From: Stentor roeselii
Taxonomy: Eukaryota; Ciliophora; Heterotrichea; Heterotrichida; Stentoridae
Length of the DNA stretch: 64,000 nt
Direction: 5' to 3'
NCBI GenBank assembly: GCA_006503475.1
Contig: RSEH01000171.1
Span: 1 to 64,000, forward strand
Part shown: positions 16,437 to 61,053 of the stretch, piece by piece
Numbering within the stretch: the stretch's first letter is position 1
Layout of the letters: every line of letters begins with the position of its first letter
Notes under the pieces: model-generated
Databases searched by the model: none
What the model was told of the DNA's origin: nothing
What the model saw: the letters and a program-made list of their open reading frames with translations, nothing else
Program-made: the position numbers and the translations under genes

Positions 16437-16886
16437 TTAATTCTTGATCAATTCACTGACCTTTTTGTGTACTCGCTTATTTAAACTGAGCTCATCGAAT
16501 AGATGAGTGATTCCCATCTCATAATAAGGCCGGGCACATTCAAAATACTTCTTCATCTCGTCTAGCCCTTCCTGCGACCTGATAACCCACTTGAACTCGT
16601 CTTTCGGCCTGAAGCTATAAGGAACCTTATCAAGACAATTCCTGTCTTTTTCCTCTCTCGACTTGATATTGAGTCTCTTCATAGCATTAAGCGCAATTAA
16701 ATGCCCATCAAGATGTGCAAGACAAGTATTATTTTTCTCTGCATAACATTTCATATCAATATTTTTCAACTCATTCTCTTTAATCCTAATTTCATTATTC
16801 AAGTTTATCAGCTGAGTCTTGATCTTCCACATTTCCGAGTAAATCGCTTCAGCTTCCTTGTCAAATTTTTTCGCTTGTTCAGCCAT
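16437..16886 (-). CDS. Unknown small protein with N-terminal coiled coil
   Basis: The product has 149 residues. Residues 1-50 are a probable coiled coil (KIKTQLINLNNEIRIKENEL); the rest is mixed, with Cys, Arg and aromatic residues (DEFKWVIRSQEGLDEMKKYF). The end (KRVHKKVSELIKN) is again helical. It lies only 12 bases downstream of the Piwi gene stop on the same strand, so the promoter must lie within the Piwi coding end or the two may be read together. I do not recognise a family. Confidence 0.65.
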   Translation of the reverse strand: MAEQAKKFDKEAEAIYSEMWKIKTQLINLNNEIRIKENELKNIDMKCYAEKNNTCLAHLDGHLIALNAMKRLNIKSREEKDRNCLDKVPYSFRPKDEFKWVIRSQEGLDEMKKYFECARPYYEMGITHLFDELSLNKRVHKKVSELIKN

Positions 16887-16898
16887 TTTATAACTTTA

Positions 16899-19193
16899 TT
16901 AATAAAACCAAGGCAAGAGTCTCAAGTTCTCATGATGTGTCTGATGAACGCTTTGACCCACTAAAAACGCGAGCTTGTGAGCCATCATCGTAGGAGCGGG
17001 GACCTTAATGCCTCCAGTCCAGTTGTAATACAAGTAACACAGTTTAAAAGCCAGTCTCGCAATCGTCATCAAGTCAACTTTTTTCTCATTTTCAATAATT
17101 CGATACAAGGTCGGCGAGGCCATCCCTGACTTGACAAAATGCGAAATCAGGTAAAAACTTTCATCTTCTGGAATAATCATCGAGTTAATCAACGTTCCTG
17201 GCCGAGGGTTTTGAAAGCCAGAAGGTGTTTCAATAAAAAGCTTCGCATTCGTTTTCTTATTCACAATCACATAAACCAGCTTTGGCGAGTAATTAGGAAA
17301 AGAGGCTGAAATGAGTGCTTTAATTGAACTAACTTCCGCGTCTTGGGCAGCCTGGATCTGACTGTTCGCGACTCCGTCGCGAAAAACAACGATCACCTCA
17401 GGCAAGAAGCGATTTTTGGTTGACTGGTGAAAAGCTTTCAGGGCTTCATGCATGCAGTCGCCCACGTGGCCTGCTATTTCCTGCCCGCTTCTTTCGTGGA
17501 TTCGAGTCGTGTTGTAGTAACTTGTGAAGTGTGGGTGAATTGACGCCACGAAGCCTAAAACGCTCTTGGCTCTTTGGACTGTGTCGTGAAACACGTCAAT
17601 TCCGACAACCATCGTCGCGATGGGCAGCCCTGGGATCGGCGAAGGGCAGGTCCAGGCGAAGGAACCCGTCTTGACTGCCATTTGAATTAGAAGCTTTGAC
17701 ATGATTGAGTCGAATTTCTTTGGGTTGTTCACGTTGTTCGCTTTTAGACATTGCGTAGGAATTCCGTATCGAAGCGCGCATAAGGATTTCGTGTCGTTAT
17801 AGACCTTTTTCTCCAGAGGACCTACCACGACTAGTACGAGCTGGATCGGCTTACTTGTTAGGATCTTTCCTAGGATTTGCTCGATGTCTCGTGGGTTGTA
17901 GTCGGCGCAGAGTGGAGCACTTAGTTTTAAACCGATCTGGCCAGCCTTGCCTAAGAGAGTTTTTATTAGCTTGTCTCGGTTGGAAGAGTCTTTTTCTGTC
18001 GTTAGAACCAGCCAGTTAGTGATTGTAACAGACTTCCACATGGAATTCCTCACAGAAAACATTCCATCCCGATTAAGCATAACCCTTTCATCATCAGTCT
18101 GAGCAGTTTTAATAAGTTCCTCATCAATTCTAAAACTATCCACAACAAGTGCCTTGGGTTTAATAATAATATTATATTCATCAGCAATCCTAGCACAATC
18201 CAAATCACTAGACAATTTGCAAGCTAACGAAATAGAAGTAGTGAGCCTCTGCTGAGGGTCAAGACGTGCATAGCTTGCAATATCATTCATAGCCTTATAA
18301 TCCTTTCGAATTTCATCAGAAAGTCCAGTCATAAAGCAAAGTTCCGGAATAAGTTTAATTTCTTTCGATCCTTTTTCAGTGAAGCTCTTAATGAGAGGTT
18401 GTTTCGGATGTTTGATGTCAATATTATACTTCCTTCTAAAATAATCCACATACGAAATCGGCCCTTCTTTCGTCATGAAGTCCATTGCAGGGTTTTCATT
18501 CAGAATGATTTCCTCAACTCGGTAACATTTGAAATTTCCATACCTTGCCATAACGATTTTTCCAGAAAGCTCAGAATTCAGCTTTGCCAACAAGCTGCCT
18601 TGAGTGAAGTTCTTTCTGATTTCTTCCATTGCCTGAAGAGCAGTCAGGTCTCTAATGATTTTGCTGGAAAAGTCAACATTCAGCAGCATATCACGGAGAT
18701 GATGAGAAAAACTAGCAGTGTACCCCCGCCAGATATCAAGTCGATGATGTTCAAGTCGCTGAGTTTGTTTCGTGTCGTAGTATTTCGGCATTTTCGTGAT
18801 TTGCTTCAGGTCTAAAGACTGCAGCATCTTCTTTAAAGCGGAATTCGCGTACATTCGGTATGAGTCTTTGTTGGCGCCTGTCACATGGCCGGAGTGAGTG
18901 ATGATTATCAGGTATTCTGACTCGTCTTGGGCAGTCACTGAGACTGAAAACGTGTTCTCGACGTGGTTCTTTGAGTACAGGGTGTTACCTGCTCGGATCC
19001 ATAGTCCTAGTCTTTCTTCTATCTTCGAACGCGCTTTGTTTAACAGTTGCATTCGAAGGGATCGGTTGTCTGATTCTATGTCTGGAGTGAAACTGTAAGA
19101 GTAAATTGAAACACTTTCTATTGGAGTTTGTTCTAGTTGGAAGAAATTGGTTGTTACTTGAATTCTTTTTAAACTGTCAGTTGAATCTACCAT
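16899..19193 (-). CDS. Piwi-clade Argonaute protein
   Basis: The product has 764 residues, uninterrupted. A PAZ domain lies at about 215-330 (VEEIILNENPAMDF, ISYVDYFRRKYNI), a MID domain at about 380-510, and the PIWI domain at about 525-764. The slicer tetrad is complete: Asp533 (VGIDVFHD), Glu572 (SGQEIAGH), Asp606 (FRDGVANSQ) and His739 (MMAHKLAFLVGQS). Piwi proteins bind small RNAs by their 5' and 3' ends and cut or mark matching targets. In ciliates related proteins carry scan RNAs that guide removal of germline DNA during new macronucleus formation; this job is inferred, as growth-stage Piwis exist too. The short N-terminus is typical of ciliate Piwis. The C-terminus ends in hydrophobic residues (LLPWFY), as expected for this fold. 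Confidence 0.95.
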   Translation of the reverse strand: MVDSTDSLKRIQVTTNFFQLEQTPIESVSIYSYSFTPDIESDNRSLRMQLLNKARSKIEERLGLWIRAGNTLYSKNHVENTFSVSVTAQDESEYLIIITHSGHVTGANKDSYRMYANSALKKMLQSLDLKQITKMPKYYDTKQTQRLEHHRLDIWRGYTASFSHHLRDMLLNVDFSSKIIRDLTALQAMEEIRKNFTQGSLLAKLNSELSGKIVMARYGNFKCYRVEEIILNENPAMDFMTKEGPISYVDYFRRKYNIDIKHPKQPLIKSFTEKGSKEIKLIPELCFMTGLSDEIRKDYKAMNDIASYARLDPQQRLTTSISLACKLSSDLDCARIADEYNIIIKPKALVVDSFRIDEELIKTAQTDDERVMLNRDGMFSVRNSMWKSVTITNWLVLTTEKDSSNRDKLIKTLLGKAGQIGLKLSAPLCADYNPRDIEQILGKILTSKPIQLVLVVVGPLEKKVYNDTKSLCALRYGIPTQCLKANNVNNPKKFDSIMSKLLIQMAVKTGSFAWTCPSPIPGLPIATMVVGIDVFHDTVQRAKSVLGFVASIHPHFTSYYNTTRIHERSGQEIAGHVGDCMHEALKAFHQSTKNRFLPEVIVVFRDGVANSQIQAAQDAEVSSIKALISASFPNYSPKLVYVIVNKKTNAKLFIETPSGFQNPRPGTLINSMIIPEDESFYLISHFVKSGMASPTLYRIIENEKKVDLMTIARLAFKLCYLYYNWTGGIKVPAPTMMAHKLAFLVGQSVHQTHHENLRLLPWFY

Positions 19194-23695: not shown

Positions 23696-23711
23696 GGGTG
23701 TTAGGGTGTTA
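23696..23711. repeat. Interstitial telomere-type repeat, two GGGTGTTA units
   Basis: The plus strand reads GGGTGTTAGGGTGTTA, two exact units of an 8-mer that is a rotation of TGTTAGGG. The published telomere repeat of heterotrichs (Stentor, Blepharisma) is, as I recall, CCCTAACA, the complement. The block lies 11 bases downstream of the stop of the minus-strand gene at 23723 and upstream of the gene starting at 23606. Confidence 0.7.
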
Positions 23712-38150: not shown

Positions 38151-38460
38151 TAAGTATCTCTTGATGTATGCAGAAGTTTATTAATCTATCAAAATTCTTT
38201 AAACTATCTCTTGATGTATACAGAATTTTATTAAATCTATCAAAATTCTTAAAATTATCTCTTGATGTATGCAGAAGTTTATTAATCTATCAAAATTCTT
38301 AAAATTATCTCTTGATGTATGCAGAAGTTTATTAATCTATCAAAATTCTTTAAATTATCTCTTGATGTATACAGAGTTTTATTAAATCTATCAAAATTCT
38401 TTAAACTATCTCTTGATATATCTAGAATTTTATTAAATCTATCAATATTCACTAAACAAC
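38151..38460. repeat. Minisatellite, about six copies of a 50-51 bp unit
   Basis: The words TCTCTTGATGTAT and ATCTATCAAAATTCTT recur about every 50 or 51 bases, beginning near 38157, 38207, 38258, 38308, 38358 and 38409. Copies differ by a few bases; two sub-types alternate (GCAGAAGTTTATTAATC and ACAGAATTTTATTAAATC). It fills the gap between the giant gene's start and the stop of the next gene, so it could influence the giant gene's promoter. Confidence 0.85.
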
Positions 38461-45496: not shown

Positions 45497-45995
45497 ATAA
45501 TGTAGGTTTATGGATACTTGATTGATTAGAGTTTAATGATTAGTAAATGGATTACAGTTTGATTTCTAGGACTTGATAAATGGGTTTGAAAGAAATTCGG
45601 ATTTATTTGATATGAATGGATATTTACATTTGAAATCCTTGTCTGTTGCTAATATTTAAAAATTTCCAGAATAGAATCTCAATATTCAAAAACTTGAAAC
45701 ATATTTATCAGCTTCAAATAGGTAAAAATAAATATTCTGTTAATTTAAAATCTGATGATCAATCTTCTAAACAAAACTGAAGAATCAATGAAAGTCTAAT
45801 CAAATCAAAGTATAAGAAACTAACAACATCCATAAGATGCAATTTACTATCATTACTAATCCTAACAACAACAATTAAATCTTATTCAAACTATACAAAT
45901 CCTAACAATAACAATTAAATCTTATTCAAACTACATCCTAAACAACAAAGCAACAATAAAATCTTATTCAAACTACATACCTTAACTTCTTCCAA
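45497..45995. other. Intergenic stretch, about 500 bp, with a short repeat
   Basis: AT-rich spacer between convergent genes. Near its end, three diverged copies of a unit of about 40 bases (core CAATTAAATCTTATTCAAAC) lie at about 45861-45980. No gene is seen. Confidence 0.6.
45861..45980. repeat. Three copies of an AT-rich unit of about 40 bp
   Basis: The words CCTAACAAYAACAATTAAAT and CTTATTCAAACTA recur at 45861 and 45901, with a looser third copy from about 45937. The gene at 45996 ends just after it. Confidence 0.7.
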
Positions 45996-47031: not shown

Positions 47032-47649
47032 ATGTTAAGACTTGGAACATTTTTAAAGCGATTTTACTTCCGTCCTCGCGACCTTCCAATATACAAGCAT
47101 GACATGATGGTTAGCATGGTGCCAAACTTCATAAATTGCCAACAAAGCCTCGAGTTTCTGCAAGTGAACGAAGGACAGATTCCCCCAAAAGTAATTGGAG
47201 ACGTACTTCTAACAATCTGCTCTCTTCAATTGCCCCTCGACGAGCATTGGCCTGAGATTTGCAAACATGTGAAGACCATTATCGCTGAGTATAACAGACA
47301 CGTGATTACTGATCTATTTCGAGTTACAAGGTATATGGCTGAAATAGGAGAAACTAATCAAGAATTCTGGGACTTGATTGAAAAAAAACTCATGGGCGAA
47401 GGACTTGTCAGGTACTTAAGTGAAAAAGAAGCCGCACAGCTATTGTGGGGACTTTGCAGAGTTAACCAGGGAAGTGAACAACTGTGGAAAAGACTGGAAA
47501 ATGAAGTAGCTCGACATCATTTCTCACTTGATTATGATGATGTCAGGGAAGCGATATATGGACTTGAAGTGTCTGGAAAGGGTAGCAAAGAAGTGATAGC
47601 TACTTTGAAAGGACATCTTAAAGAGCACGAGCTTTCTCTTCTAGTTTAG
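47032..47649 (+). CDS. Unknown alpha-helical protein, possibly mitochondrial
   Basis: The product has 205 residues. It starts with a basic, Arg-rich helix (MLRLGTFLKRFYFRPRD), which could be a mitochondrial targeting signal. The rest is made of helix pairs with Leu and Trp at repeating spots (EAAQLLWGLCRVNQGSEQLW), as in RAP/FASTK-like or other helical-repeat organellar RNA proteins. The RAP domain itself is absent. The mitochondrial location and RNA role are inferences. A telomere-type repeat lies 42 bases after its stop. Confidence 0.7.
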   Translation: MLRLGTFLKRFYFRPRDLPIYKHDMMVSMVPNFINCQQSLEFLQVNEGQIPPKVIGDVLLTICSLQLPLDEHWPEICKHVKTIIAEYNRHVITDLFRVTRYMAEIGETNQEFWDLIEKKLMGEGLVRYLSEKEAAQLLWGLCRVNQGSEQLWKRLENEVARHHFSLDYDDVREAIYGLEVSGKGSKEVIATLKGHLKEHELSLLV

Positions 47650-47691
47650 ATTCTAGATAGTTAAGCATGAAATAAAATGAAGGGCTTTAGT

Positions 47692-47723
47692 TAACACCTT
47701 AACACCCTAACACCCTAACACCC
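47692..47723. repeat. Interstitial telomere-type repeat, four TAACACCC units
   Basis: The plus strand reads three exact TAACACCC units preceded by one unit with its last base changed (TAACACCT), 32 bases in all. TAACACCC is a rotation of CCCTAACA, the heterotrich telomere C-strand repeat. The block lies in the 90-base gap between two genes, 16 bases before the ATG of the PX-START gene. Confidence 0.85.
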
Positions 47724-47739
47724 AGTCTTATGCTAATAA

Positions 47740-49356
47740 ATGGAAGGCATAAAAAGTGAAATCAAAATCCCAAAAACACAAATCAAGAAATCAGACTCTT
47801 TCTTCGGGTCCACCTTTACAGTACCTCCTAAATAGCTTTACGAGATCCACACGAATATTCCAGGAGTTTGTGAAATGATTACTTTAAAGCGCTATTCAGA
47901 ACTTCGAGAATTATCAGAAAAAGTAACTAAAAATCAGCTAAAACCTCTTTGCGAGACTCTTGATATCTACCTTCCCAACTTTCCAGGAAAAAAACTAATG
48001 AAAAACCGAGACTCTTTAACTGAAAAGCGACGTGAAAAGATAGAACGTTGGCTTCAACTTGCTGTGAAACATTCGAGCTTATCTAAAAAAATTATGGATT
48101 TCTTGAACTTAAGTGAAGAAACTATTCAAAACGAGTTATCGGCCTCGGCGAAACCTGATGAAAACTACGTCTTAGACTTCATTGAAAAGCTTTCAGGATG
48201 CAAGAACAACAAACTGAACCAAATCGATAAATTTTGTTTCATGTTTTTCTCAAGAAAAAGAACAGTCTCTGATGCTGTTTTAAAAAAACTTCTTGAAGCA
48301 TTGTTGCCTTTATGTGGATCAGATTTATGTGGAGGTAAAGTAGTTGACGTTCTAAGTAAATTAACTTCAAGTGACTATTTCAAGGACTTTGCCTGTGTTT
48401 GTAAGGTATTTGCAAACATCGATATTTACCTTCTAAGAGAAATGAACCTAAATGATTACTTGACAAAGAAAAAATTTGTAGACAGTCAATTACAAGTGTA
48501 TAAATTATGCAAGATATACGAAGAGAACTGCAGATCACCAGTTCTCAACGAACTAGTAAAACCTAAACAGCTCTTAAACGACAAAGACGCCATTTTTGTA
48601 TATAGAAACTGGGGAATGCAAACAAAGCAACCAGACCAGCAATTATCACTCGAAATCTTATCATGGCGCCCACTGATCTCCACTGAAAACATGAGTGTAA
48701 AGTTCAGGTTCATTGAAAGACAACTAGAAATCTCTGGAGAGATCATCGTTGAATCCTCTGTACAAAAAATAATCAATATCTTAACAGTTCCTTCAGAACG
48801 TAAAAAGTGGGACATTCTTCTCATCGACATGAAACCTGTCGGTTCAAACGGTTTCATCTTCACCTATTCAAGCGAGAAGACCGTTTATGAATTCCATACT
48901 TTAATCTCAATTGCAAAAGCTTCAGAATCAGAACAAATTCCAGCAACTGTTGAATTCGTTACAACTTGCTATGAAAAACTAGATCCTATTTCAAAGATAG
49001 GAAAAATTAACTCAAGTTACTCAATAGAGAAAATGGATGAACATGTTTCTAGCACTAAAGAAAGCCAAGATATGATTCTTTGTGGGTTGGCCAGCGACTT
49101 CGTCGCTGGCAGGGTAAAAGTGCAGTGGTCGTCGAGTTACTGTCAAACAAGCTTCTCATTAGTAAGAGGAGACGTGTTTCAAGAGGCTGATGTTCTCAAG
49201 AAAAGCTTGGATAGGCTTATTTGTGTTGCTGAAGGGCGAGAGGAACAAATGGAATCCTTAGAAAATCCGAAAAATCCACTTATTGATGCTTTTGAAAGGA
49301 AAAGACTTGACAGGGCTTTTACTTTTTGTAGTTCAAACCAGTTTCAGAGTGAATAG
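47740..49356 (+). CDS. PX-domain and START-like lipid-binding protein, one 15-nt intron
   Basis: Exon 1 is 47740-47820 and exon 2 is 47836-49356; the product has 533 residues. The intron removes an in-frame TAG and restores the N-terminus of a PX domain (about 28-105), including KRYSELRELSEK, the Pro loop YLPNFPGKK and REKIERWLQL, typical of PI3P-binding PX domains. A helical linker follows. About 295-480 fits a START-like lipid-transfer domain (FRFIERQLEISGEIIVES, SERKKWDILLIDMKPVG). PX domains bring proteins to endosomes; START domains carry sterols or other lipids between membranes. The pairing suggests a contact-site lipid carrier, which is an inference. The telomere-type repeat just upstream makes its promoter unusual. 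Confidence 0.85.
47821..47835 (+). other. 15-nt spliceosomal intron in the PX-START gene
   Basis: The intron reads GTACCTCCTAAATAG, lies between codons, and contains an in-frame TAG. Splicing joins a 27-codon first exon to the PX domain. Confidence 0.85.
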
Positions 49357-55848: not shown

Positions 55849-58800
55849 TCATAATCTTTCTTCAAACACAGTATTATCTCCAGGAAAATCCTCATCAGGG
55901 TCTCTAGGAGTGATACTAAACTGGGTATAACCTAACTTTCTACTTTCTACAACTCCTCTTACATAATTTCTCCACCCTTTCAAAATACTTTTAAGCAAAA
56001 TTTTTTCTAAGAAGAAATTTGTAGAAGTTTCTTTATGATCTTCTAAAATCTTCTGCTTCCAATATTTTTTCTGCTGTTTTTTTGTTAGTTTCGAGATGAT
56101 TGACTTTGTTTTTTTTTCTTCATTTCCAACAATTTTGCGAAAATAAGTATTTGAGTCTTTTTTCAAGAACTTTTTTTTTAATATTGCGAAAAGAAACTGG
56201 TTATAATAAATAAATCCTTCTTTATCAGTTTCTATTTGAAGAGCTTTAAGAAATCTCATTATTTTTAAGTGGTCTGTGTTGAAATTTATCCCGAATTCAT
56301 TTAAGTTTTTCATTATTTCAGGAAGGTCACTGATTTGAACTCGTATTCCTTTTTGATCCTTTGAGAAGAGGTTCCAGATGGTTTTGATGGGATAGACTGC
56401 CTGCTCAAATATAAAAGCTACAGTTTGCGGGTTTTTATCATATTCTTCATAAGACTGTATAATAACCATGATAAACAAGTTAAGCATGACAAAAACAACA
56501 AGAATCATGAAACTCAGAAAGTAAGTTTCAGCAAGTACCATTCCCTGAGCCTTGCCACATTCAAACATGATTTTATACCAGTCCTCGCCAGTTGTACATC
56601 TGAACAAAGTAAGCATGGCAAGTCCAAAACTAGCGAACCTCGCAGAATTCAAGGTTCCAAAAAAATGGTAGCCTAAAATCGCATATATGTAGAAAATCAG
56701 CACAAGCAATGCCATCACATTTCCAAAAGCAGGTAATGAGTAAAAAATTATATCTAGTAGCTTTTTTAATGGTTTGAGTATTTTAAACAAACGTATAAAC
56801 TTCGATATTCGAAAAACCTTTATCGACCTAATTAGCTGAGGCCCTTTTCTCAATAAGATGATACTAGATCCAAGAATAAACGTCAAAAAGATATCCACAA
56901 ACGAAATAATAACCACACCAAAATCAAAAACATTAGAAAAGCTCGAAAAGTATCTCCTCAACCCTAATCCAACGACCTTAAAAATCGCTTCTACCAAGAA
57001 AAAAAACGTAAAAATCAAATTACAAGTATCAAGAGCATACAAATAGTCCTTTCCCGCGTCTTCATACACAATTGCCATAGAAATCATATTACAGATGATA
57101 ACAAAAACCACAACCACTTCAAAATAACTACTTTCAATAACCCCAAAGCAAAACTTCCTAATTTTCCCAGAAGGTGTCTGACAATTTCCACCAGCAGAAG
57201 AAGCTTTAATAATAAGTTTCTGCATTTCAATCCAAGTCATCTGCTCCTTAGTTAAAATAGACGCTGCAAGTGAGGACTCATGTTTTCTAGCTTCATTAAA
57301 CTTCTCATAAACGACTCCAACAAACAGGTTCATGAAGAAAAAAGAAGAAATCGTGATAAAAATCACGAAATAATAAGAAACGTTTGGGTTGAAGTCCTTT
57401 ACAGGCGCTTTGTCCACATCAGTGGCGTCAATCGCGGAGTACATGATTTCCGGCCACCCTTCTTCTGAACTAAGAATCATCAAAGTAATAAAAGTATTCC
57501 ACACATTATCGAAATTCGGCCAAAGAACCTGCCAAGAAAATCCAGATTTTTCGCATAAATTTCTATCAAAACTTTGATTTTCCTTACAAATGTAAAGTTT
57601 TCCTGCAAATAACGAAACTCCTAAAATAGCGAACATCAAAACAACGATAGCTTGGACTATTATCACGTTTAAAATAGCGACAATAGATTGAAGTAATGAA
57701 ATAACTACGATTTTCATAGAGTTGTTATAGTTTATGTACCGGAAAGGTCGAAGAGTTCTTAGAAGTCTCACGACTTTTATGTGGGAAATTTGAATGTTGG
57801 CAAAAGCGAAGTCGAATATTGAAGAAAGGACGACGACTAGGTCGATGTAGTTCCATTTGTCTTTCATGTAAGAAGAGTCGCCGAAGATAAACCCACGACT
57901 GATGATTTTTATCAGAAACTCAAGGAAAAATATCACAGAAAATATCTTGTCAATCACGTCAAGTTTACTAATCATCTCATCTGACAAATAAGTGTCAACT
58001 GCCAGTTTTACACTACTCACTAAAATAATCATCAAAATAAAATACTCAAAAATCTGAGAAAACGACAAAAAAATGCAGAACTTTCTAAATTTATTCTCAA
58101 TTGAAAATAAAAAAAGACTCTTTCCAGGATTTGCTAAAATCGTATTTTTCACTGATTGAGAATGATTTAAATTCTGTTCATCTTCACTATCACTATTCAT
58201 TTCATCAATCATTCTCAAATTTCTCTGTAGTCTTTTCGACATCCTAATAGAATGACCTTCAAAGATCCTTTCCTTCCTTTCCTTAACATCATCTTCAACG
58301 TTATTTTCCGAGAAATTTTCAAGTAAAATCGCTAGAAACAAGTTCAAAATAATATAATTTCCCAAAACAATCCAAGAAATAAAATACAAACAACTGACAT
58401 ACCCAGCGTCAGAATTCATCGCTGCATAAAAAATGCTCTGCCAGTTCTCAACTGACAAGACTTGAAAAGTGCTGAGAAGACTTGCGTGAAAAGAGTCAAA
58501 ATTCGCTCTTGTTGATGATTTGAACTTGCCACTGAAGATTTGCATTCCTAGAATAGTGTAGACCATTATCAGGATAAATAAGAGAAGGCCGATGTACATG
58601 TAACGAGTGACTGACTTGCTGATAACTGCGATGATATGAGCCATTGAGTGCAGGTAACGAAAAAGCTTGGCAACTCGTAAGATTCTTAAGACTTTAAACA
58701 AGCGAAAGACCCGAGCCGTTCGAAAAGCACTTAAGACTGACTTGGTGCCTGATGTGAATGACAACTCGACGATACTTAGAACAACTATCGACCCATCAAA

Positions 58801-61053
58801 AAGATTCATCAGGTCTTTACAGTACCCTTGCAACCCAAGCGCCAGTACTTTCAAAAACATCTCAAAAATAAAAATATAAGTAAAGCCTAGATTGATGTTT
58901 AACAGAACTGTTTGCATCTCTTCAGTGATCCCGTAATGATCGATACTTAAAACCAAGGTATTCGCCAATACACTGAAAATCAGTAAAATGTTAAAAGTTC
59001 TAGATTCAATAAAAACTCGTAAAGGAAATCGACACTTTTCAAAAATTCCCCAAATGTTCTTGTTCCAAATACGAAATTTCATGTTGTTTAAACTAGTCAT
59101 CACTTGAACACTGCTTATCTCTGAAACTTCTCTTCCTGACCAGATCCCTTCAATATACCTTGTTTCTTCTTCGATTTTTTCTAGTTTTTTACAGAAAAAA
59201 GAAACTTTCTGATTAATCAGTTCAAAAGCAGCTTCTTCATTGTACTTTAAAGTCAACTTGCTGAATATTTTAAAGTCAGAAACAGGTCCTGCAAAGCTTT
59301 CATTCAGAACTTCTCGGGTCAAGTTGTGGTCCCAGGTCCTGATAGGATTTTCCATAACTTCTTCAGGCAACTTATGTAAAAAGGTCCTGCTGGGCACCCT
59401 GGCGAAGTTGTCAAGAGTTAAACTTCTGTTTATTGGTTTGATGTCTAAACTTGAGCTATTCCAAAGTAAAAATTCCTTTAAAATGACTTTAGTTTTAAAG
59501 AGCTGGTCACCTTGAGTCACTTGGTCCAGAGCTACTTTAGAGATGGGAAGTTTTGAATTCATTCTTTGAAATAAACTCTCGACTTTTACAGAATTTGAAT
59601 TGAGAAGTGATTGAAATTTTTCGGAAAAATCGATTTGTAAGTCACTTGGCTTTTTACTGTTTAAGTCGCAGGTGATTCGTTCTACTCCGTCGTTTTGATG
59701 ATCGATTCGCAGTTCGGAATATTGAGGGTTAGGGATATCGCTTCTAAAGGGTGAAAAGTCTTGATTTTCACCGTTTTCAGCAAGTTTTGATGAAAGTTGT
59801 CTTGAATCGATCCAGTTATTTGAGGATTTCTTTGAATTCTGACCTTTTATTATTGTTTTTGTTAAAGCTGACTTGATTATCACCATGAAAAGGTTCAGGA
59901 AGACTAAGGAACCGATGAAGACGAGAGGAAGGAAGTAAAGGATTGTTAGATTGCTGAAGGTTTTTTCAGTTATTTTTAAAATTTCTACCCAACCTTCTAA
60001 AGTTATGCACTGGTAAACTATTAGTGATGCAAAAAATATGTTGTCGAAGTTCACGATTCCTGAACCTGGGTTGGTTAAACTTCGAACGCATTCTTCAGAT
60101 GGCGGGCAGATTAAATTACCGCAGCTGGATGAACGGATCACTCCTGAATTTAGGTCCATGCATTTGTAGTAAAAGAGACCTGACCATAACTGCATACCTC
60201 CAATTGCAAAAATCAAAATAAAAAGCAAGAACAAACTCATAGCAGCCGACAAAGGCCTAATAGAAGTCCCAATCGAAACAATAATAATCCTTAAAGCCTT
60301 CAAACTACTGATGCTTTTTAAAGGCCTCAAAATCCTTAACACCCTAAGAACCTGAAGATTAAAGCTAGAATTCAAAGAATAGTCCAGCCAAAACGTAAGC
60401 AGCAAAGAAAAGTCCAAAACATTCCACTTCTTCTTAAAATAATTTTTTTTTCCTCCGAACACCCCAAGACTAAAAATTTTGACAAAAAACTCAAAAGTAA
60501 AAACCGCTAAAAAAAACTCTTCTAAAGCCTTGCCACTCGAACTAGACATCGAAGGACTATCCAAGGCCAAAGTCAAGGTATTCGCAATAATAACTAAAAA
60601 AATAACTACTCGAAAAGTGAAAGTTTTCATAATTTTCATGCAAACTTCACTTACCCCAGCAGCGATTCTACGAAAAGCGTTTTTAAAATCTTGAAAATTT
60701 GAGAAATTTTGTGAATTTTCAATGATTTCATAGCTATTTTTTTCAATTATTTGCAAACATTCTGAGTAGTTAATTTTTTCATCTATTTTAAGGTCGTGAT
60801 CTTTGAAGACTTTGAATGCGCTTAGTTCTGAAATTTCGAAGTCGTACATTGGAGAGATTTCTGAGTTTTTTGTGTTGGATCTGATCAGGTTCACAAAGGT
60901 CGGACCTCGAAGTAAGCCCAGGAGTAAAGGCGATCGAATCTGGGCGGAACTGGGAGGGTTCGAGTCTAAAGATTCTGAAAAGGAATCTGGGTCTTTCACT
61001 GTGATTATGTTTAGGTGAAGAGCCTTTCTTGGGCTTTTATGCATTCTTTCCAT
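55849..61053 (-). CDS. Four-domain voltage-gated Ca2+ channel alpha-1 subunit
   Basis: The product has 1734 residues in one open exon, near the usual 1700-2000. Four six-helix repeats lie at about 138-400, 685-920, 995-1250 and 1300-1540, each with a charged S4 (for example FNLQVLRVLRILRPLKSI, RVFRLFKVLRILRVAKLF, IKVVRLLRTLRPFRY, IKVFRISKFIRLFKILKPL). The selectivity filters give Glu353, Glu869, Glu1198 and Glu1490 (TLEGW, SVENW, SEEGW, TGEDW), the EEEE ring of Ca2+ channels. Ciliates use such channels in the ciliary membrane for reversal of beating; Stentor also contracts by Ca2+ release. A C-terminal EF-hand-like segment is not obvious. It is the largest single-exon conserved gene in the window. 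Confidence 0.97.
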   Translation of the reverse strand: MERMHKSPRKALHLNIITVKDPDSFSESLDSNPPSSAQIRSPLLLGLLRGPTFVNLIRSNTKNSEISPMYDFEISELSAFKVFKDHDLKIDEKINYSECLQIIEKNSYEIIENSQNFSNFQDFKNAFRRIAAGVSEVCMKIMKTFTFRVVIFLVIIANTLTLALDSPSMSSSSGKALEEFFLAVFTFEFFVKIFSLGVFGGKKNYFKKKWNVLDFSLLLTFWLDYSLNSSFNLQVLRVLRILRPLKSISSLKALRIIIVSIGTSIRPLSAAMSLFLLFILIFAIGGMQLWSGLFYYKCMDLNSGVIRSSSCGNLICPPSEECVRSLTNPGSGIVNFDNIFFASLIVYQCITLEGWVEILKITEKTFSNLTILYFLPLVFIGSLVFLNLFMVIIKSALTKTIIKGQNSKKSSNNWIDSRQLSSKLAENGENQDFSPFRSDIPNPQYSELRIDHQNDGVERITCDLNSKKPSDLQIDFSEKFQSLLNSNSVKVESLFQRMNSKLPISKVALDQVTQGDQLFKTKVILKEFLLWNSSSLDIKPINRSLTLDNFARVPSRTFLHKLPEEVMENPIRTWDHNLTREVLNESFAGPVSDFKIFSKLTLKYNEEAAFELINQKVSFFCKKLEKIEEETRYIEGIWSGREVSEISSVQVMTSLNNMKFRIWNKNIWGIFEKCRFPLRVFIESRTFNILLIFSVLANTLVLSIDHYGITEEMQTVLLNINLGFTYIFIFEMFLKVLALGLQGYCKDLMNLFDGSIVVLSIVELSFTSGTKSVLSAFRTARVFRLFKVLRILRVAKLFRYLHSMAHIIAVISKSVTRYMYIGLLLFILIMVYTILGMQIFSGKFKSSTRANFDSFHASLLSTFQVLSVENWQSIFYAAMNSDAGYVSCLYFISWIVLGNYIILNLFLAILLENFSENNVEDDVKERKERIFEGHSIRMSKRLQRNLRMIDEMNSDSEDEQNLNHSQSVKNTILANPGKSLFLFSIENKFRKFCIFLSFSQIFEYFILMIILVSSVKLAVDTYLSDEMISKLDVIDKIFSVIFFLEFLIKIISRGFIFGDSSYMKDKWNYIDLVVVLSSIFDFAFANIQISHIKVVRLLRTLRPFRYINYNNSMKIVVISLLQSIVAILNVIIVQAIVVLMFAILGVSLFAGKLYICKENQSFDRNLCEKSGFSWQVLWPNFDNVWNTFITLMILSSEEGWPEIMYSAIDATDVDKAPVKDFNPNVSYYFVIFITISSFFFMNLFVGVVYEKFNEARKHESSLAASILTKEQMTWIEMQKLIIKASSAGGNCQTPSGKIRKFCFGVIESSYFEVVVVFVIICNMISMAIVYEDAGKDYLYALDTCNLIFTFFFLVEAIFKVVGLGLRRYFSSFSNVFDFGVVIISFVDIFLTFILGSSIILLRKGPQLIRSIKVFRISKFIRLFKILKPLKKLLDIIFYSLPAFGNVMALLVLIFYIYAILGYHFFGTLNSARFASFGLAMLTLFRCTTGEDWYKIMFECGKAQGMVLAETYFLSFMILVVFVMLNLFIMVIIQSYEEYDKNPQTVAFIFEQAVYPIKTIWNLFSKDQKGIRVQISDLPEIMKNLNEFGINFNTDHLKIMRFLKALQIETDKEGFIYYNQFLFAILKKKFLKKDSNTYFRKIVGNEEKKTKSIISKLTKKQQKKYWKQKILEDHKETSTNFFLEKILLKSILKGWRNYVRGVVESRKLGYTQFSITPRDPDEDFPGDNTVFEERL

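Follow-up and report, generated by a model that had tools for sequence, protein, structure and literature searches.

Telomere repeats at interior chromosomal positions are commonly taken for scars left by breakage or fusion, or else for promoter boxes. The short interstitial telomeric sequences of animals consist of a few telomere units at interior sites. In bacteria, DNA uptake and Chi words provide examples in which one short word is over-represented genome-wide, in both coding and non-coding DNA; we know of no machinery for such a word in the eukaryote studied here.

The telo boxes of plants (AAACCCTA) are described as concentrated in 5′ flanks and linked to ribosome-biogenesis genes (Gaspin et al., 2010; PMC3022908). 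Among ciliates, the chromosome breakage sequence of Tetrahymena is described as confined to the germline, where it lies between two new telomeres (PMC5182062).

We have analyzed a stretch of 64,000 nucleotides from the ciliate Stentor roeselii (hereafter the window), in which a tandem array of four telomere-like units lies just ahead of a gene, together with related sequences throughout the genome. Like the animal sequences, the array comprises few telomere units at an interior site; unlike them, it belongs to a set with fixed register and flanks, with a variant unit not found at contig ends, and with a word that is found in genes without insertion. Like the bacterial words, one short word is in excess genome-wide in coding and non-coding DNA, but in a eukaryote and far more sparsely, at about one copy of TTAACACCC in every 28 kb. 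The resemblance to plant telo boxes is that of a short word equal to the telomere unit, chromosome-internal and near gene starts; unlike the telo boxes as described (PMC3022908), the ciliate single words follow the genome into coding sequence, and the ten downstream proteins looked at did not point to any one class of gene. As with the Tetrahymena sequence, a short conserved word is tied to ciliate telomere biology, but the present word is retained within the assembled chromosome and occurs much more often than the breakage sequence as it is described (PMC5182062). The heterotrich-type repeat (CCCTAACA) is shared with the alternative telomere addition sites of Blepharisma; those sites are reported as reads carrying telomeres, whereas here the repeat lies in the assembled chromosome with flanks unlike telomere junctions (PMC9942806). 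A literature text search for the letters of these words gave, by title among the matches listed, no ciliate papers on them, and a search on ciliate interstitial telomeres gave, again by title among the matches listed, none on telomere repeats in ciliate promoters.

Results

A Four-Unit Array of the Telomere Repeat between Two Genes

The array consists of one TAACACCT unit followed by three TAACACCC units (Table 1). It lies inside a 90-base gap separating two same-strand genes, 42 bases after the stop codon of the first and 16 bases before the ATG of the second. Direct reading bears out the composition, coordinates and spacing given in a first-pass annotation of this DNA. The same annotation had named the downstream gene PX-START. 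Its PX part is confirmed by a Pfam match (PF00787, E = 1e-8); for the START part no domain reached E = 0.001. A second array in the window, placed likewise between a stop and an ATG, had been overlooked, and single copies are found within genes.

Table 1. Positions of the arrays, neighboring genes and related repeats. Positions are those of the window except in the last line, which gives genome loci
Feature	Position	Strand	Basis
Four-unit array, TAACACCT then three TAACACCC	47692..47723	+	Direct reading; TRF period 8, 4.0 copies
Array with flanks (T before, AG after), fitting the extended word (T/A)TAACACC(C/T)(A/T)G	47691..47725	+	Direct reading, flank tallies
Downstream gene, PX domain, 15-base intron at 47821-47835	47740..49356	+	Direct reading, gene finder, Pfam
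Upstream gene, ending 42 bases before the array, without Pfam match	47032..47649	+	Gene finder, Pfam
Second array, two TAACACCC units, T before, TG after; 11 bases after stop, 89 before ATG	23696..23711	-	
Single TTAACACCC, antisense within gene 55849-61053 (-)	60336..60344	+	
Single TAACACCC within gene 16437-19193 (-)	18980..18987	-	
Word-bearing minisatellites	C250:39266, C91:150077, C64:67803, C179:72153, C93:68386; L009, L022, L057, L072, L075		

TGA is read as a stop codon here, since none occurs in frame within the longest open frames (2,054, 1,050 and 949 codons). In Blepharisma, UGA is reported to encode tryptophan (PMC9942806); the code used here makes Blepharisma an unlikely source and agrees with a Stentor-like heterotrich. 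The window also contains two spacer minisatellites that lack the word, at 38155-38457 (period about 50 bases) and 45862-45987 (period about 40 bases).

The telomeric contig ends that were read are nearly pure TAACACCC, typically about nine units. The array is therefore built of the telomere unit of this genome, as had been supposed, and lying inside a contig of 105,860 bases it is an interstitial telomeric sequence in the descriptive sense of tandem telomere units away from chromosome ends. Allowing up to three mismatches, TAACACCCTAACACCC has five matches in the window, three of them overlapping inside the block, against 0.07 expected from 100 dinucleotide shuffles. A chance origin is ruled out by these shuffles, by genome counts set against the reversed pattern, and by an order-3 Markov model. 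An assembly joint was also considered as the source, and is thought unlikely because the pattern is common to 70 loci and both neighbors of the array are open reading frames.

Interior Arrays Have a Fixed Register and Common Flanks

The exact two-unit 16-mer has 740 matches in the 44.4 Mb genome and its reversed pattern has none. Contig ends account for 90 of the first 100 matches listed. Telomere arrays can be excluded by requiring that the first unit be preceded by a base other than C, and 89 matches then remain. The variant TAACACCTTAACACCC has 32 matches genome-wide, with none of the 32 at a contig end. Combining the two genome searches, and dropping the contig-end arrays L076 and L098 before counting, we obtained 70 loci at which 2-7 units lie away from telomeric contig ends; the second array of the window is one of them. 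As the searches either exclude C before the first unit or fix T.C, arrays with other starts may be missed. The first-pass annotation had held that its reading would be undermined by similar blocks across the genome and by a lack of reads with extra telomere repeats ending here. On the first of these points, similar blocks are indeed present, at the 70 loci.

The register of the arrays is fixed over the 70 loci. Flanks were tallied first on 70 non-coding contexts (several per locus), and then once per locus. T precedes the array at 52 of the 70 loci (one array per locus), a tally that is biased by the exclusion of C in one of the searches; the right-flank tally is unaffected. On that side the array is followed by A or T at 70/70 loci and by WG at 36/70, and the last unit ends in C in all 70. 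In the spacers of the window, A or T follows 66 of 80 CCC words. Among 39 singly substituted units, 34 carry a C to T change at position 8, which is the only change admitted by the array finder inside arrays, the other five coming from the edges. The block at 47692-47723 fits the whole pattern, with T before it, units ending in T, C, C and C, and AG after it.

Interior Arrays Differ from Telomeres at Contig Ends

Junctions at 15 of the 18 contig ends read were clean; L102 (junction out of view) and L113 and L115 (slip inside the telomere) were omitted. Five of the junctions lie at CCCTAA and two extend past it by one or two bases; four fall after CCC and four elsewhere. The four that fall after CCC continue AT, AG, GT and AA. 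CCC followed by WG is thus found at 1 of 15 clean contig-end junctions, compared with 36 of 70 interior arrays (Fisher p = 0.001).

A healed break, one of three explanations offered by the first-pass annotation, is disfavored by the fixed register, by the flanks common to 70 loci, by the presence of TAACACCT units, and by the lack of insertion at six coding sites (see below). A captured or newly added telomere was set aside as the leading idea in view of the register, flanks and variant units; judged from sequence, these same features would speak against the arrays having begun as telomeric DNA that fusion or the repair of a break put in place. Nor does the word resemble a chromosome breakage sequence, being kept inside an assembled contig and missing from 14 of the 15 clean junctions.

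A related possibility is a repair event in the germline, in which telomerase would have acted on a broken 3′ end by copying one or more units of its template; the end would then have been rejoined, leaving a short interstitial telomere sequence. The units equal the telomere repeat, and the fixed register could result from a fixed template start and stop, in a manner like the model proposed for plant telo boxes (PMC3022908). Such an origin sits poorly, however, with TAACACCT units, for which 0/32 matches are at contig ends, with array flanks unlike those of contig-end junctions, and with the presence of the word at six coding sites without insertion. We consider it unlikely for the block; for the intergenic arrays, on the present analysis, a telomerase origin is possible.

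The first-pass annotation had also suggested that the block might mark an alternative telomere addition site in the macronuclear genome. Such a site would be active in some of the macronuclear copies, telomerase being primed by the interior unit. Telomerase is naturally primed by a 3′ end in GGGTGTTA. In Blepharisma 46,705 potential sites are reported, most of them with one read (PMC9942806). Yet 14 of our 15 clean contig-end junctions do not read CCC followed by WG, and most of the sampled single sites lie inside genes, so that we find this explanation hardly credible.

Arrays Lie Mostly between Genes

Genes were called using a crude finder of our own; the intron penalty was relaxed in a later run, and short calls were filtered for the classification of arrays. 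By this measure 61 of 70 arrays are non-coding (intergenic) and 9 are coding. Seven of the nine, all two-unit words, lie in long open frames (L034, L055, L069, L070, L088, L089 and L096). Even these few are unexplained by a codon model, which expects about 0.001 copies of the exact 16-mer in all coding DNA, and duplication does not explain the seven, because growth by 8 bases would shift the frame.

In tandem spacers the C strand is sense at 18 arrays and antisense at 7 (p = 0.04), and in divergent spacers 17 of 22 arrays are nearer the sense start (p = 0.02; combined p = 0.001). The distance from array to sense start is 8-272 bases. The non-coding location of 61 arrays and both of these orientation biases favor a promoter element that resembles a telo box and is under selection for the downstream gene's expression, and a regulatory telobox is the closest of the three options in the first-pass annotation. 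However, in the 120 bases that precede start codons in the window the sense strand is itself C-rich (534 C versus 313 G). This alone favors the observed orientation, and we therefore do not take the lean as proof of a promoter role; it may reflect composition only. Downstream of stops in the window the sense strand has 374 C and 464 G.

No shared class was seen among ten downstream proteins examined (the PX protein, two methyltransferases, a GST, a mitochondrial pyruvate carrier, a TCP-1 chaperonin, a ribosomal S13/S15 protein, a thioredoxin-domain protein, a kinase and a patatin). As regards the concentration in 5′ flanks described for telo boxes, 61 of 70 arrays are non-coding, with a sense lean that may be compositional; among single words 30 of 40 lie in called genes, and single sites follow the genome rather than promoters (see below). 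A promoter-only motif, our first hypothesis, is weakened by the mostly coding location of the sampled single sites and by the C-rich upstream regions. From the sequence evidence, selection as a promoter element is a distinctly unlikely explanation of the block.

The Single Word Is in Excess throughout the Genome

TTAACACCC has 1,560 matches in the genome, compared with 159 expected from an order-3 Markov model with the motif masked, or 166 from a codon plus intergenic Markov model. It is thus about ten times over-represented. The codon and intergenic model was trained on one 64 kb window, and the Markov models on 240 kb that were partly motif-selected. Under the order-3 model the reversed word gave 147 observed versus 194 expected, and other controls gave 926 versus 883 and 240 versus 265. 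The codon model over-predicts the reversed control (147 versus about 310) and the order-1 Markov model over-predicts all the controls (147/336, 926/1506 and 240/324, observed/expected) while giving 1560/201 for TTAACACCC; the excess is therefore not created by these models.

Related words were also counted. RTAACACCC has 920 matches against 195 expected. Of the first 100 TTAACACCD matches listed, 84 have T as their last base, 11 have A and 5 have G (hand tally); scaled to 1,218 matches, this amounts for TTAACACCT to about three times the 313 expected, and for TTAACACCA to fewer than the 207 expected. The single word has the same preference for C over T at its last base as the arrays. A or T comes next at 53 of 60 single sites and WG at 36 of 60, compared with WG at 125 of 629 CCC in the window. 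WG follows 9 of 21 RTAACACCC; it follows only 5 of 20 TTAACACCT sites, showing that the right flank is not common to the T variant. The arrays and the sampled single sites have in common the WG on the right and the choice of C or T at the last base. No equally enriched 9-mer was found, other than overlaps of the motif, in 240 kb that were largely motif-selected. The next 9-mer in these partly motif-selected 240 kb, CTAATGAAA (TTTCATTAG), occurs at 22 loci, with 5.5 expected.

The location of the word was studied in 60 of the 1,560 single sites, taken nearly in contig order, with array sites and a few close neighbors skipped. Of 40 sites read in contig order 30 lie in called genes, 16 in the sense and 14 in the antisense direction. 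When 20 short pieces are included, 50 of 60 sites look coding by a rough open-frame score, in several frames. Since the window itself is 81% coding by the same gene finder, the single sites follow the genome and not promoters. Their spacing showed no regularity and was Poisson-like over 61 gaps in 17 contigs (the clustered C12 and C13, and C20 and C21, the last listed, were left out), and homology among the 40 loci was limited to one weak match of 44 bases.

At six coding sites the encoded proteins were aligned with solved proteins. The six were picked from ten for their likeness to known families, and represent five single sites and one two-unit array (L088). They comprise a KIF2-type kinesin, a kinesin-8-like motor, an RNA methyltransferase, a ubiquitin hydrolase, a voltage-gated channel (L088) and a dynein heavy chain. 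None of the six best printed alignments shows a gap at the motif residues; that of the dynein heavy chain has a two-residue gap about ten residues past the motif. On the evidence of these alignments, the word at the six sites occupies protein positions that already existed, having arisen through codon choice and substitution and not by insertion.

The Word Occurs in Direct Pairs and in Minisatellites

There are 63 direct pairs of TTAACACCC within 30 bases, in about 24 clusters (hand tally), and none for the reversed control. Facing pairs within 30 bases are absent genome-wide. Some of the clusters are the arrays themselves, and others are minisatellites of differing period. The clustering points to growth by duplication. 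Ends of the MITE or piggyBac type (TTAA target) were sought as well; there were no facing pairs within 30 bases, and at no array locus did the 0.8-3 kb retrieved contain arrays on both strands. The minisatellites listed in Table 1, with periods from about 14 to 127 bases, each include TTAACACCC or a two-unit array within the repeated unit.

It could be argued that the block is a neutral minisatellite, in which a TTAACACC word that arose by chance has grown by replication slippage and has no function. The occurrence of direct but not facing pairs, the presence of the word in minisatellites of several periods, and the tolerance of 8-base steps between genes are all in keeping with this. It leaves unexplained the ten-fold excess of the single word and its excess in coding DNA, and we give it little credence.

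Discussion

Two things that were joined in the first-pass annotation are now separated, namely a scar derived from a telomere and a genomic word that equals the telomere unit. The block more likely belongs to the second class. We propose, with moderate confidence, that a dispersed telomere-like word, probably a protein-binding site, has here expanded locally in steps of 8 bases, and that the block is not a telomere added to or caught in a break.

The word may be written as approximately (T/A)TAACACC(C>T)(A/T)G, with C preferred to T; its core is one telomere unit, and it would be scattered thousands of times through this macronuclear-type genome. We infer that it is recognized by a putative sequence-specific DNA-binding protein, which could plausibly belong to the Myb type and be related to a telomere binder. 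Our guess is that such a protein, perhaps also binding telomeres, is the simplest account of the commonness of the word. The Myb DNA-binding domain is that of a large family, with at least 150 matches in the genome. Sites would accumulate by DNA-level selection or biased gene conversion, spreading through coding DNA, and arrays would grow by duplication mainly between genes, where a shift of 8 bases is tolerated. The four-unit array in the gap before the PX gene would then be a strong putative site near the start of transcription.

An excess that extends over coding and non-coding DNA, either strand and several frames would imply a force acting at the level of DNA. We suggest, tentatively and with rather less assurance than we attach to our reading of the block, that a ciliate macronuclear-type genome keeps thousands of copies of WTAACACCYWG, the core TTAACACCC being present at about ten times expectation, through a force of this kind. 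If this is true, the force might be selection for binding by a putative telomere-type protein, or gene conversion biased to protected sites. The word would then be a eukaryotic counterpart of the uptake or Chi words, and the arrays would be places where it has grown. What makes this of interest is that one telomere unit is over-represented about ten-fold, mostly within genes in our sample, and without insertion at the coding sites compared. If upheld in an annotated assembly, it would point to a genome-wide role for a telomere-like word in an organism of a type that builds and caps its somatic chromosomes anew.
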